Source of the DNA: Candidatus Kaiserbacteria bacterium
Lineage (GTDB): Bacteria > Patescibacteriota > Minisyncoccia > Phycocordibacterales > UBA2100
Assembly (NCBI GenBank): GCA_028286865.1
Contig: JAQBQU010000015.1
Location: 1 to 47,357 of the forward strand
Direction of reading: 5' to 3'
Length of the DNA: 47,357 bases
Both the position numbers and the translations under genes were made by a program. Each line of letters opens with the position of its first letter. Position 1 is the first letter of the stretch. Below the pieces are notes generated by a model. That model saw nothing but the letters and a program-made list of their open reading frames with translations, made no database searches and had not been told where the DNA came from. Shown piece after piece: positions 5,586-46,850 of this stretch.

Positions 5586-5616
5586 AAACAAAAAGCCCAT
5601 CACATGGGTGAGGGCT
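5586..5616 (-). terminator. Rho-independent terminator in the leader of the 5090..5548 gene
   Basis: Minus strand AGCCCTCACCCATGTGATGGGCTTTTTG. Confidence 0.7.
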
Positions 5617-5725
5617 TGCGCCCTCCACACCAGTTTCCCGATGTGGCCGATCAAGACACCCCCATATGATGGGTTTTCAGGCCTTGATCGGACTTTTCAC
5701 CATGCCCGCCTTAGACGGGTTTAGG
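5586..5725 (-). promoter_or_regulatory. Candidate structured leader / attenuator
   Basis: Ordered hairpins CCGATCAAG...CTTGATCGG, CCACA...TGTGG, GAGGGC-GCAA-GCCCTC, the last overlapping the 5' arm of the terminator stem. Confidence 0.45.
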
Positions 5726-5899
5726 CTACTTGCTCGCTATTGCAGAGCACGTACAGCATACCCTGCACAGGCACGTTTTTCCATTCGCCGTGTGTCGAAA
5801 CGTGTGGGCTCACGTTGAAAAATAAAGCACACTTGAACTACGCCAGCTGATTAGGCGCAATGACGCAACGTGAGGCGTTTTAGGCCAATCGTGGCTACT

Positions 5900-21397: not shown

Positions 21398-23617
21398 ATG
21401 GAGCCATCGAAAGCACCGCAGCCATTCCTGAGCCCCTATAATTCTATCGACAACGAGCCGAGAATCCGCGCGCTCTGGGAGGACTCTAAATATGCAAATC
21501 CGGACGTGTGTATCGAAAAGGGCGTAACTGCCTCTGATGCCGAGCCGTATACGATCGTGCTTCCCCCGCCGAACGTCACGGGTACTTTGCACATGGGCCA
21601 CGCTGCCATGCTCGCGATCGAAGACATCCTCATCCGCTACCAACGCATGCGAGGGAAAAAGACGCTCTGGGTACCGGGGACGGATAGCGCCGCGATCGCG
21701 ACACAATCGAAAGTCGAGGGTGATATATATAAGAAAGAAAAACTCTCACGCCACGATCTCGGCCGCGACGAATTGATGAAGCGCATCGACGCATTCACCG
21801 AAGAGAGCAAGAATACGATCATCGAACAAGTGCAGCGCATGGGCTCGTCTCTCGATTGGAGCCGCTACGCATACACGATGGATGCTCCACGATACAACGC
21901 GGTCATGACGGCGTTCGTCCGCATGTACGAAGCCGGGCTCATTTATCGCGGTAACCGCATCGTGAATTGGGATCCGAAATTGCAGACGACCGTTTCTGAC
22001 GAAGAGATCGAGCATGTGGAGCAGAAAGATCCCTTTTATTACTTCCAATACGGCCCGTTCGTGATCGGCACGGTACGTCCGGAGACGAAATTCGGAGACA
22101 AATACGTCGTGGTACATCCCGACGACGAGCGCTACGCAGAGTACTCGCACGGCCAGCAGCTCGAACTCGAATGGATCAATGGGCCTATCGTAGCAACGGT
22201 GATCAAAGACGAGGCCGCGAATATGGAGACCGGGACCGGCGCCATGACCATCACTCCTGCTCACTCCGCTATCGACTTCGAGATAGCGCAGCGCCACAAG
22301 CTCGACGTGGAACAGGTGATCGACGAGCGCGGCATACTCCTTCCTATCGCAGGAGAATTCGCGGGACAGCACATCAAGAAGGCGCGTTCGATGATCGTGG
22401 CGAAGCTTCACGAAAAGGGCCTCGTTGTGAAGATAGACGAGAGCTACACTCACAACGTCTCGACTAATAGTCGCGGCGGCGGCACGATCGAGCCACAGAT
22501 CAAGCTCCAGTGGTTCGTCGGCGTGAATAAAGAATTCACCATTCCCCACTCCGAGATACCCGGCATTCAATCGGGCTCAAAGACTACGCTCAAAGAGGTC
22601 ATGCGCGCGGCGGTCGCGAGCGGAGCGACGAAAATTAATCCGGAGCGCTTCGAGAAGATCTATTTCCACTGGATAGAGAATCTGCGCGACTGGTGTATCT
22701 CGCGTCAGATCTGGTTCGGTCATCGCATCCCGGTGTGGTACAAGGGCGATGAAATATATTGCGGTACTGAGGCGCCCGAGGGCGAGGGCTGGGAGCAGGA
22801 CCACGACACGCTCGATACCTGGTTCTCATCGGGACTGTGGACCTTTTCTACTCTCGGTTGGCCGGACAAGACTCCCGACCTCGAGACATTCCACCCGACA
22901 TCGGTCCTCGAGACCGGATACGACATCATCTTCTTCTGGGTCGCCCGCATGATACTCATGTCGGGATTCCACCTCGGCCAGGTCCCCTTCAAGCAGGTGT
23001 ACCTGCACGGGCTTGTCCGCGACGGCCAGGGCCGCAAGATGTCGAAAAGCCTCGGCAATATCATCGACCCGCTGACCATGATCGAAAAGTATGGTGCCGA
23101 CGCAACGCGCCTCTCGCTTATTATCGGAGCCCAGCCGGGTAACGACCTCAAGCTCGACGAGAACCGCGTGCGCGGCTACAAGCACTTCGCCAATAAGCTC
23201 TGGAACATCACCCGCTTCGTGCTTGAGAATGCCGACGCCTCATCGCTTACGGCTACGCTTACTGATGCGGATAAAGCGCTCGTCGCGGAAGCGAAAGAGC
23301 TCGCACAGACCGTCTCGGGCAATATCGACACCTTCCGCCTCGATCTCGCCGGAGACGCCGTGTATCACTATGTGTGGGACCGTTTCGCCGCGCAGATCAT
23401 CGAAGAGACCAAGCCGGTCCTGAAACTGTACGAAGGCGAAGAAAAAGCATCGAAGCAGCGCATGCTCTACGAGATACTCATCCTTTCGCTCAAACTCCTT
23501 CATCCGTTCATGCCGTTCGTGACCGAAGCCATCTGGCAGGAGCTTCCTGAGAAAGAAACCGATCTCCTCATGGTAGCCAAGTGGCCAGTTCAACCAACCG
23601 GAGCAAGTAGCATCTGA
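21398..23617 (+). CDS. valS: Valyl-tRNA synthetase
   Basis: LPPPNVTGTLHMGHA and GRKMSKSLGNIIDP; class I aaRS. Confidence 0.96.
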   Translation: MEPSKAPQPFLSPYNSIDNEPRIRALWEDSKYANPDVCIEKGVTASDAEPYTIVLPPPNVTGTLHMGHAAMLAIEDILIRYQRMRGKKTLWVPGTDSAAIATQSKVEGDIYKKEKLSRHDLGRDELMKRIDAFTEESKNTIIEQVQRMGSSLDWSRYAYTMDAPRYNAVMTAFVRMYEAGLIYRGNRIVNWDPKLQTTVSDEEIEHVEQKDPFYYFQYGPFVIGTVRPETKFGDKYVVVHPDDERYAEYSHGQQLELEWINGPIVATVIKDEAANMETGTGAMTITPAHSAIDFEIAQRHKLDVEQVIDERGILLPIAGEFAGQHIKKARSMIVAKLHEKGLVVKIDESYTHNVSTNSRGGGTIEPQIKLQWFVGVNKEFTIPHSEIPGIQSGSKTTLKEVMRAAVASGATKINPERFEKIYFHWIENLRDWCISRQIWFGHRIPVWYKGDEIYCGTEAPEGEGWEQDHDTLDTWFSSGLWTFSTLGWPDKTPDLETFHPTSVLETGYDIIFFWVARMILMSGFHLGQVPFKQVYLHGLVRDGQGRKMSKSLGNIIDPLTMIEKYGADATRLSLIIGAQPGNDLKLDENRVRGYKHFANKLWNITRFVLENADASSLTATLTDADKALVAEAKELAQTVSGNIDTFRLDLAGDAVYHYVWDRFAAQIIEETKPVLKLYEGEEKASKQRMLYEILILSLKLLHPFMPFVTEAIWQELPEKETDLLMVAKWPVQPTGASSI

Positions 23618-23637
23618 TTTCTTTTGAAGAGTGAGCG

Positions 23638-23727
23638 GCAGTGCTTTTTACCGTGTGCGCAGGCCCGACGGGGCCGAGATCCAGCGCTGCCTGAGCACAG
23701 GCAGATAGCGACGGTAAAAAGCACTGC
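23638..23727. repeat. Structured ~90-bp hairpin element A (three-way-junction fold)
   Basis: GCAGTGCTTTTTACCGT ... ACGGTAAAAAGCACTGC 17-bp perfect arms; inner GGCCC-GACG-GGGCC and CTGCCTG-AGCA-CAGGCAG. Confidence 0.9.
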
Positions 23728-23751
23728 TCGAACGTACGCTATAATCTCGGG

Positions 23752-24462
23752 GTGGAAGCCTATTACCCTATACTGGCAGCATTAGCAGGAGGTCTGCTCC
23801 CGGCACTCGCCTGGCTCTGGTTCTGGCGTCGTGAAGATTCGCGCCATCCTGAGCCGCGCCGACTGATAGCACTCGCCTTTTTCGGCGGCATGGTCGCCGT
23901 CGCAGTGGTCATCCCCATCGAGAAATTCGTACAGCCCTACGCGGGCGATGTCGCGTGGTTGCCGCCGATGACGCTCCTTTTCATCGCGTGGGCCTTTATT
24001 GAGGAGATAACTAAATTCCTCGCCGCATACGTGACCGTCTTGCGTCGCGCCGAAGACGATGAGCCCATCGACCCGGTCATCTATATGGTGACGACCGCGC
24101 TCGGCTTTGCTGCGGCAGAGAATACGCTTTTCCTGCTCTCTCCGCTCGCCGGCTCCACGGTATTCCAGACACTCATCACGGGTAATCTGCGCTTCGTCGG
24201 AGCCACCCTACTTCACGTACTCTCATCCGCAGTGATCGGCTTGGCCCTAGCACTCGCCTTCTACGCCAAGCGCAATGTAAAGCGTCGCTACGCATTCATC
24301 GGCGTCCTGTTCGCGGGCATCGTGCACAGCATTTTCAACTTTTTCATCATCAATACAGCAGAGGAGCACCTGCTGCGCACCTTCGCCTTCGTATGGGTCG
24401 GCATCATCGTACTTCTGGCAGTACTCGAATTCGTGAAGCGTATCAAGCCACGGTGGACATAG
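23752..24462 (+). CDS. PrsW-like intramembrane metalloprotease family protein
   Basis: Multi-TM; AFIEEITKFLAAYV and HSIFNF; GTG start. Confidence 0.8.
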   Translation: MEAYYPILAALAGGLLPALAWLWFWRREDSRHPEPRRLIALAFFGGMVAVAVVIPIEKFVQPYAGDVAWLPPMTLLFIAWAFIEEITKFLAAYVTVLRRAEDDEPIDPVIYMVTTALGFAAAENTLFLLSPLAGSTVFQTLITGNLRFVGATLLHVLSSAVIGLALALAFYAKRNVKRRYAFIGVLFAGIVHSIFNFFIINTAEEHLLRTFAFVWVGIIVLLAVLEFVKRIKPRWT

Positions 24463-45703: not shown

Positions 45704-46360
45704 TTACTCAAGACGCCCCTTCATCTTCTTCCACTCATCGATCTTGGCGTGATTGCCCGAAAGAAGCACCTCCGGCACCTTATATTTCTTTTTTTTCCAG
45801 GTAAGCACTTCGGGACGGGTGTATACCTCCGGGCTCGACACGCGACTTCTCTCGAGCGACTCCGCTTTGCCCAATACATCGGGAACAAAGCGCGATATCG
45901 CATCGATCATGGTGGCCGCAGGAAGTTCTCCGCCAGTGAGCACGAATGGGCCGACGGTGACCTTGCGAGCTTTCAGTATTTTCTCGACACGCGCGTCAAC
46001 GCCCTCGTAATGCCCGCAGATAAAAACGATATCTTTCTTTTTTGTAAGACTCTGTGCCATTGATTCATCAAATTGCTCCCCATCGGTCGAGAAAAAGATA
46101 ATTTCTACATTCTTTTTCTTCCCTACCGCCTTTGCCACAGCTTTGAGCATAGGCTCGGGGCGCATGACCATGCCGGGACCACCGCCGTACGGACGGCGAT
46201 CTACGCGCACGTCTTGCGTGCGGTCACCATCGATAAAATCTTTTGGATTGTAAAAAGCGACCTTGATCTTCTTCTTCTCCTGCGCTCGCCCGAGTATCGA
46301 GGTATTGAGATACGGCTCAATAGACTCAGGAAATAATGTAACGATATGAAAATGGATCAT
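45704..46360 (-). CDS. trmD: tRNA (guanine-N1)-methyltransferase
   Basis: MIHFHIVTLFPESIEPYLNTSILGRA; RRPYGGGPGMVMRPEP; ICGHYEGVDARV. Confidence 0.95.
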   Translation of the reverse strand: MIHFHIVTLFPESIEPYLNTSILGRAQEKKKIKVAFYNPKDFIDGDRTQDVRVDRRPYGGGPGMVMRPEPMLKAVAKAVGKKKNVEIIFFSTDGEQFDESMAQSLTKKKDIVFICGHYEGVDARVEKILKARKVTVGPFVLTGGELPAATMIDAISRFVPDVLGKAESLERSRVSSPEVYTRPEVLTWKKKKYKVPEVLLSGNHAKIDEWKKMKGRLE

Positions 46361-46385
46361 AGTATTTCTTCGTACGGAGCGAGGT

Positions 46386-46475
46386 CAGTGCGGTATTTGG
46401 GAGACCCCGCAGGGCTTGGCCCGAGGACAGTACTTTTTTCAGCAGAAAAAAGTTGTTCTCCCAAATATCGCACTG
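46386..46475. repeat. Structured ~90-bp hairpin element B (three-way-junction fold)
   Basis: CAGTGCGGTATTTGGGAGA ... TCTCCCAAATATCGCACTG; inner GGGC-TTG-GCCC and ACTTTTTTC-AGCA-GAAAAAAGT. Confidence 0.9.
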
Positions 46476-46487
46476 CCGAGCGTAGCT

Positions 46488-46850
46488 TTACTGGGCCTTG
46501 AGATCCGTGATGATGTCATCCATCGTCGTGTCGCGGACATACGGTTCTGATGGAGCAGAATCAACTGCGGCGCCGGGCTGGTTGCCTGACGGACGGCGCT
46601 CAGATCCCTCCGGCTCTTCGATCTTGAGGTTCACGCGGGCATCGTTCTTCATACCGACGACGCGAAGCACGGTGCGGATCGCCTTGGCGGTCGCGCCCGA
46701 GCGTCCGATGACCTTACCCATGTCTTCCTGATTGACCGAAAGAGTGAGAAGGACTCCCATCTCATCAACGACACGGTTGATCTTTACATCTTCCGGCTTG
46801 TCAACGAGGGCCTTGATAACGTATTCCAAAAATTGCTGATCGTTTTCCAT
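46488..46850 (-). CDS. KH-domain RNA-binding protein (KhpA/YlqC-like)
   Basis: FLEYVIKALVDKPEDVKI..MGKVIGRSGATAKAIRTVLR. Confidence 0.9.
   Translation of the reverse strand: MENDQQFLEYVIKALVDKPEDVKINRVVDEMGVLLTLSVNQEDMGKVIGRSGATAKAIRTVLRVVGMKNDARVNLKIEEPEGSERRPSGNQPGAAVDSAPSEPYVRDTTMDDIITDLKAQ

Follow-up and report, generated by a model that had tools for sequence, protein, structure and literature searches.

A multi-copy family of strand-specific three-way-junction hairpins in Candidatus Kaiserbacteria and its relatives

Integron attC sites keep their structure while their sequence varies, and it is one strand of the site that folds; that strand is antisense to the gene, whose stop codon comes shortly before the site. 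REP elements, as described in PMC3733652, are 20-40 bp long and carry a GTAG or CGTC tag; they are intergenic and multi-copy, tend to lie past the ends of coding regions and between genes running the same way, sometimes form opposed pairs, and flank RAYT genes. The REP palindrome is kept through complementary changes, according to PMC2817692. The account in PMC2229807 gives ERIC/IRU, RUP and Correia/NEMIS-like MITEs as non-coding intergenic repeats of ~100-200 bp with long stem-loops.

Here, we analyze two intergenic elements, A and B, in a stretch of 47,357 nucleotides from a Candidatus Kaiserbacteria bacterium (the window; contig JAQBQU010000015.1 of assembly GCA_028286865.1). The two are copies of one large multi-copy family of ~100-base hairpins, found between genes in many ultra-small Patescibacteria. 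The family is apparently undescribed: literature searched by title and abstract opening yielded no description of it, and one may exist elsewhere.

Elements A and B

Element A lies between valS and a PrsW-like gene, and its folded strand is sense to both, which is the minority arrangement in the family. It is recognized by a covariance model (R2, described below) from whose training set it is absent. Its features are as follows.

21398-23617, + strand: valS, the 5' neighbor
23625..23740, + strand: whole element A (R2 match, 74.0 bits, E = 8e-17)
23630..23635, + strand: left foot AGTGAG (family consensus AGCGAG), a conserved block read from the sequence
23638..23654, + strand: 5' arm of stem P1, GCAGTGCTTTTTACCGT, 100% complementary, the stem being present in computed folds
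23662..23675, + strand: hairpin 1, GGCCC-GACG-GGGCC, with CGCA before and GAG after (sequence and fold; helix 2 of the covariation analysis)
23687..23704, + strand: hairpin 2, CTGCCTG-AGCA-CAGGCAG, with the conserved AGCA loop (sequence and fold; helix 3 of the covariation analysis)
23711..23727, + strand: 3' arm of stem P1, ACGGTAAAAAGCACTGC (inverted-repeat match)
23729..23734, + strand: right foot CGAACG (family consensus CGAGCG), a conserved block read from the sequence
23752-24462, + strand: PrsW-like gene, the 3' neighbor

From arm to arm (23638-23727), A folds with an energy of -58.8 kcal/mol (z = -5.2), and 0 of 200 shuffles were equally stable. Element B occupies the gap between trmD and the KH-domain gene khpA, with its folded strand antisense to both genes, the majority arrangement.

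45704-46360, - strand: trmD, one neighbor
46373..46488, + strand: whole element B (R2 match, 106.6 bits; B is within the training set)
46378..46383, + strand: left foot AGCGAG, a conserved block read from the sequence
46386-46475: B from arm to arm, a three-way junction
46386..46404, + strand: 5' arm of stem P1, CAGTGCGGTATTTGGGAGA (19-nt arms, 95% complementary)
46412..46422, + strand: hairpin 1, GGGC-TTG-GCCC (sequence and fold)
46432..46453, + strand: hairpin 2, ACTTTTTTC-AGCA-GAAAAAAGT (sequence and fold)
46457..46475, + strand: 3' arm of stem P1, TCTCCCAAATATCGCACTG (19-nt arms, 95% complementary)
46477..46482, + strand: right foot CGAGCG, a conserved block read from the sequence
46488-46850, - strand: khpA, the other neighbor

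The fold of B also departs from its dinucleotide shuffles (z = -6.1). An earlier note, made from the letters alone, had described A as 17-bp perfect arms enclosing two hairpins and B as the same fold built from different paired stems. The arms are indeed perfect (23638-23654 and 23711-23727), both hairpins of A are present in the sequence and in the fold, and A and B are both three-way junctions belonging to one family. The agreement between their flanks that the note pointed out corresponds to the conserved feet AGCGAG and CGAGCG of the conservation profile.

No promoter-like or terminator-like site was found at A or B, and no T-run follows the hairpin. An intrinsic terminator at either locus was rejected on the grounds that there is no T-run and no terminator-like site was called. 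Compared with the 4227 families of Rfam, neither element gave a match at gathering level, in line with the note, which had not recognized a described family in them; at E up to 10, B had none and A only sub-threshold chance matches. Elsewhere in the window, positions 5610-5727 (- strand) match the Rfam LOOT RNA (RF03000) with 86.9 bits.

Across the genus, the khpA-trmD gap holds the A/B family in some species and other hairpins elsewhere, and in two it is 9-16 bp long. The hairpins in other species (L199, L205, L206, L213, L218, L221 and L227) are long and unlike the A/B family, and several are built from short iterated words (TAGCG, CTAG, TTGTAAA).

Copies, covariation and the folded strand

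The first 12 copies came from a model-free palindrome scan and have the same helix order with different stems. In the source genome, scanned by stretches that covered all but a few short contig tails, 14 inverted repeats have an arm score >= 14 with 40-75 nt between the arms, versus 1, 0, 0, 0 and 0 in five dinucleotide shuffles. A joint MAFFT alignment of both types misplaced the 3' arms, so the types were modeled by way of R1, a covariance model trained on eight type-B copies, and then R2, trained on 85 matches. R1 matches 44 of the 52 genomes of the genus, and R2 finds 14 clear copies in the source genome. A covariance-model search of the genome and its relatives, which the earlier note had proposed, thus turned up many further copies. 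Within the order, matches at E <= 0.001 occur in 138 of 297 genomes and 75 of 165 genera, the highest counts being at least 12 copies per genome, and a phylum-wide draw gave matches in 22 of 380 genomes, mostly of the same order and also in a distant family (f146). Sequence records containing the type-B core carry the names Ca. Kaiserbacteria and Nomurabacteria, apart from one labeled as an uncultured bacterium. An exact-pattern search of viral contigs for this core was empty, so a phage source is unsupported.

The copies are intergenic and lie near gene ends, often with a stop codon 7-14 nt away; some stand directly before start codons, and some form opposed adjacent pairs (L124, L147, L309 and L311). 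Where the neighbors are co-directional, the folded strand is antisense to them in 26 cases and sense in 4; usually it is the strand that serves as their template.

Several other sequences were encountered during these searches. Loose flank-pattern searches returned mostly chance matches, together with a different palindrome type in G032 and G034 (L063-L065) that has no R1 match. Partial or diverged cores with an AGCA-type hairpin occur at L074:11573-11628, L079:19161-19202, L083:8454-8495, L083:9242-9362 and L113:16707-16764, and some of these adjoin apparent tRNA gene ends. One copy (L120:1501-1672) has ~50 extra bases within hairpin 2. A repeated module, TTTGGYATTTCCTCGC...GCTCGGTCACAG, is found at L068:2537-2575, L105:18296-18336 and L109 near 3715 (- strand), and adjoins the left side of two family copies.

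The oriented layout of the family is AGCGAG, P1, CGCAG, hairpin 1, CGAG, hairpin 2 with its C AGCA G loop, P1' and CGAGCG. In most copies of the genus the feet abut the stem, and conservation falls off outside them; they are absent from the G186 copies and from nearly all G097 copies. Among 85 sequences, 94.0% of cells are paired versus 56.7% after shuffling, the covariation score is 0.905 versus 0.203 +/- 0.009, and two-sided changes occur at 31 of 32 pairs. Sliding the partners by 1-3 columns lowers the score to below 0.16. Because A6 and A8 are model-fitted alignments, their pair counts lean towards the fold; the slide and shuffle controls share the same alignment. The selection on fold that the earlier note had read from just A and B is borne out by this strong covariation: the copies form a family with a three-way-junction fold under selection for its shape.

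One defined strand folds, which for both A and B is the + strand of the window. Scoring G.T and A.C alike at interior isolated pairs, we counted 84 G.T and 21 A.C in 105 copies (p = 4e-10). The excess is 38:12 where the folded strand is antisense to its neighbors and 13:1 where it is sense, 18:5 and 38:13 in the highest-scoring subsets, and 23:7 outside the genus. Because it holds whichever way the neighboring genes run, the strand rich in G.T is the one that folds; transcription-linked mutation would track gene orientation and therefore does not explain it. Tandem G.A/A.G pairs are likewise found 11 times on the folded strand and 0 times on the other, and in this genus the GCGAG/CGAGC feet could close the base of the structure by such pairs.

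Presence at orthologous loci and the changing arms

Source-genome loci were compared with their orthologs in G009 or G028, with flanking DNA only ~67-86% identical. Counterparts of the source-genome copies are present at three loci in G009 (L104, L105b and L069) and one in G028 (L077), and other copies are missing at the orthologous genes, including A in G028. To judge by the sequence comparison, these differences fit mobility, and some of them may be losses. The empty sites in related species are too diverged for reading an exact target site or a target-site duplication, which in ERIC-type MITEs is typically TA.

At two non-homologous loci of the source genome (L090 and L109), an identical inner block is enclosed by different paired outer stems, and at one orthologous locus (L105b versus L228) the outer arms have changed on both sides with the inner part alike. 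In G186, five copies have an identity of 0.95 in the core, 0.94 in the inner 10 bp of the stem and 0.33 in the outer arms, yet each pair of outer arms is a perfect or near-perfect inverted repeat of ~20 bp or more. The outer arms of the G097 copies are largely common to them (0.69; CTGTCCGGGGAAAATTC).

With these TIR-like shared arms, the G097 copies (L317-L325) resemble a MITE carrying the family core. Another repeated core, GGGTTAGCGAGTCTTCGAGCGCTTT, sits atop inverted-repeat arms that are near-perfect but differ from site to site (L334 ~655-715, L355 and L356 in G186; L350 in G121). This core contains the words AGCGAG and CGAGCG and is unrelated to that of A and B.

The G186 arms, unrelated yet perfect, are not accounted for by a fixed sequence that simply transposes, and they are the least explained of our results. 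Their candidate origins are pre-existing palindromes, creation of arms at insertion, and fast evolution in place with correction; in G121 the empty sites are too diverged for reading the state of the arms before insertion. It is conceivable, if rather doubtful, that a mobile core recognized by its shape alone targets or creates perfect inverted repeats around itself, each insertion having site-specific arms. If true, such a core would have a sequence-independent way of spreading.

Candidate explanations and described systems

The explanation that we favor, and give somewhat better than even chances, is a strand-specific small non-coding hairpin that acts at the DNA level, is mobile and is spread by a putative trans-acting factor. 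One strand would fold into the long P1 stem of ~20 bp, the three-way junction, whose conserved linkers are CGCAG and CGAG, and a pair of short hairpins, with a conserved C-AGCA-G loop on the second. The putative factor would recognize the shape of the folded single strand by its core and foot, and not by the sequence of the stem, probably while the DNA is transiently single-stranded, and may spread or maintain the hairpin between genes by analogy with RAYT for REPs and IntI for attC sites. Selection on shape, possibly helped by a process in which one arm of the hairpin serves as template for correcting its partner, would keep the stems paired as their letters change. That DNA rather than RNA is the folding molecule, that a factor acts in trans and that one arm corrects the other are what we infer from these patterns; since fold selection is strong even where a copy does not seem recent, the hairpins might also have a resident function at their respective loci.

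The earlier note had left a structured RNA and a mobile hairpin side by side. Copies of a structured non-coding RNA, duplicated round the genome, would have their folded strand transcribed and a junction that binds protein or ligand. Strong covariation, a fixed tetraloop and a three-way junction whose linkers are conserved are what one sees in structured RNAs, the one-strand tolerance of G.T and the tandem G.A pairs are also compatible with RNA, and at some loci (the carA leader in L077/L235, and A) the folded strand is the mRNA strand. We nevertheless favor a mobile hairpin, given that the strand that folds mostly serves as template for the flanking genes, being antisense to both neighbors and often within ~15 nt of a stop codon, and that presence at the same gene varies between species. 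There is, moreover, no conserved promoter-like motif upstream of the left foot, with none at A or B, and no Rfam match. A function as RNA thus fits less well than a DNA-level hairpin, and we regard the structured RNA as unlikely, though the main rival. A terminator or stabilizer hairpin at the 3' end of the upstream gene's transcript would suit the many copies lying 7-14 nt past a stop codon, as well as the khpA-trmD gap, where different hairpin types occur by species as if a hairpin were useful there. Such a transcript, however, would mostly carry the strand on which the wobbles are A.C mismatches, the opposite of the selected one; the hairpin is not followed by a T-run at A or B, whereas the genome has many palindromes of the ordinary terminator type, and some copies directly precede start codons. 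We therefore consider this reading quite improbable.

Mobilization as REP elements by RAYT (Y1 tyrosine) transposases is largely refuted and strikes us as very improbable, even though 45 of 52 genomes of the genus have RAYT-like or other Y1 transposase genes and the intergenic position and opposed pairs recall REPs and BIMEs as PMC3733652 presents them. No Y1/RAYT gene was found in the source assembly (~90% complete) or in the 100%-complete G137, where ten elements match at E <= 0.01 and eight of these are confident copies (below 1e-4). Conversely, the Y1-rich genomes G072 and G033 have no element match in the genus scan, and the RAYT genes inspected in G001 (L149), G007 (L180) and G015 (L066) adjoin other, short palindromes. 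Membership was rejected because the family has feet AGCGAG/CGAGCG rather than a GTAG or CGTC tag, no RAYT gene flanked by the element among those inspected, and ~100 bp with three helices; of the REP/RAYT and terminator readings that the note had named for comparison, neither holds. The palindromes near the RAYT-like genes of L149, L180 and L066 are of the GAGGTnnnACCTC type. A conserved core might instead be inserted into long inverted repeats, or generate them at the insertion site, in which case the arms would be host sequence. The G186 copies (core 95%, inner 10 bp 94%, outer arms 33%, with perfect or near-perfect arm pairs), the second, unrelated core of G186 with its own near-perfect arms and, on a smaller scale, L090 and L109 speak for this. 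Against it, the G097 copies largely share their outer arms (CTGTCCGGGGAAAATTC), in most of the genus to which the window belongs conserved feet lie outside the arms, which have a loose consensus there, and arms have changed in place at an orthologous locus (L105b versus L228). We find host arms improbable as a separate account; this process could also be the mechanism behind the mobile DNA hairpin.

As a mobile DNA hairpin, the family would add a repeat that spans an entire order of ultra-small bacteria, most of them uncultivated, whose genomes have very little spare DNA. Its divergent stems and selection for shape on one strand make it a test case for the recognition and spread of single-stranded DNA hairpins, and a covariance model such as R2 could annotate these genomes directly.

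The A/B family resembles REP, ERIC and attC in behavior and fails the defining features of each. With the structured RNAs of Rfam it has in common a three-way junction with strong covariation, and it differs in that A and B match none of those families at gathering level. Like REPs, BIMEs and REPINs, its members are short intergenic multi-copy palindromes with opposed pairs and complementary changes, but they measure ~100 bp, contain a three-way junction, have AGCGAG/CGAGCG as their feet and show no link to RAYT. They are of the same size class as the ERIC/IRU, RUP and Correia/NEMIS MITEs and are likewise non-coding and intergenic with a long stem-loop. MITE copies, however, have sequence in common, including terminal inverted repeats and often TA ends, whereas the stems of the A/B family differ between copies and its two conserved ends are not reverse-complementary; ERIC-type terminal inverted repeats were rejected, as the arms covary and differ, the G097 copies being the exception. 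Strand-specific folding, finally, is shared with integron attC sites, as are a structure preserved under varying sequence and a position close after stop codons with the folding strand antisense. In contrast to these, the conservation profile has no GTTRRRY/RYYYAAC recombination boxes at the ends of the A/B family, its neighbors are ordinary housekeeping genes rather than cassettes, and it is the central three-way junction that is conserved instead.
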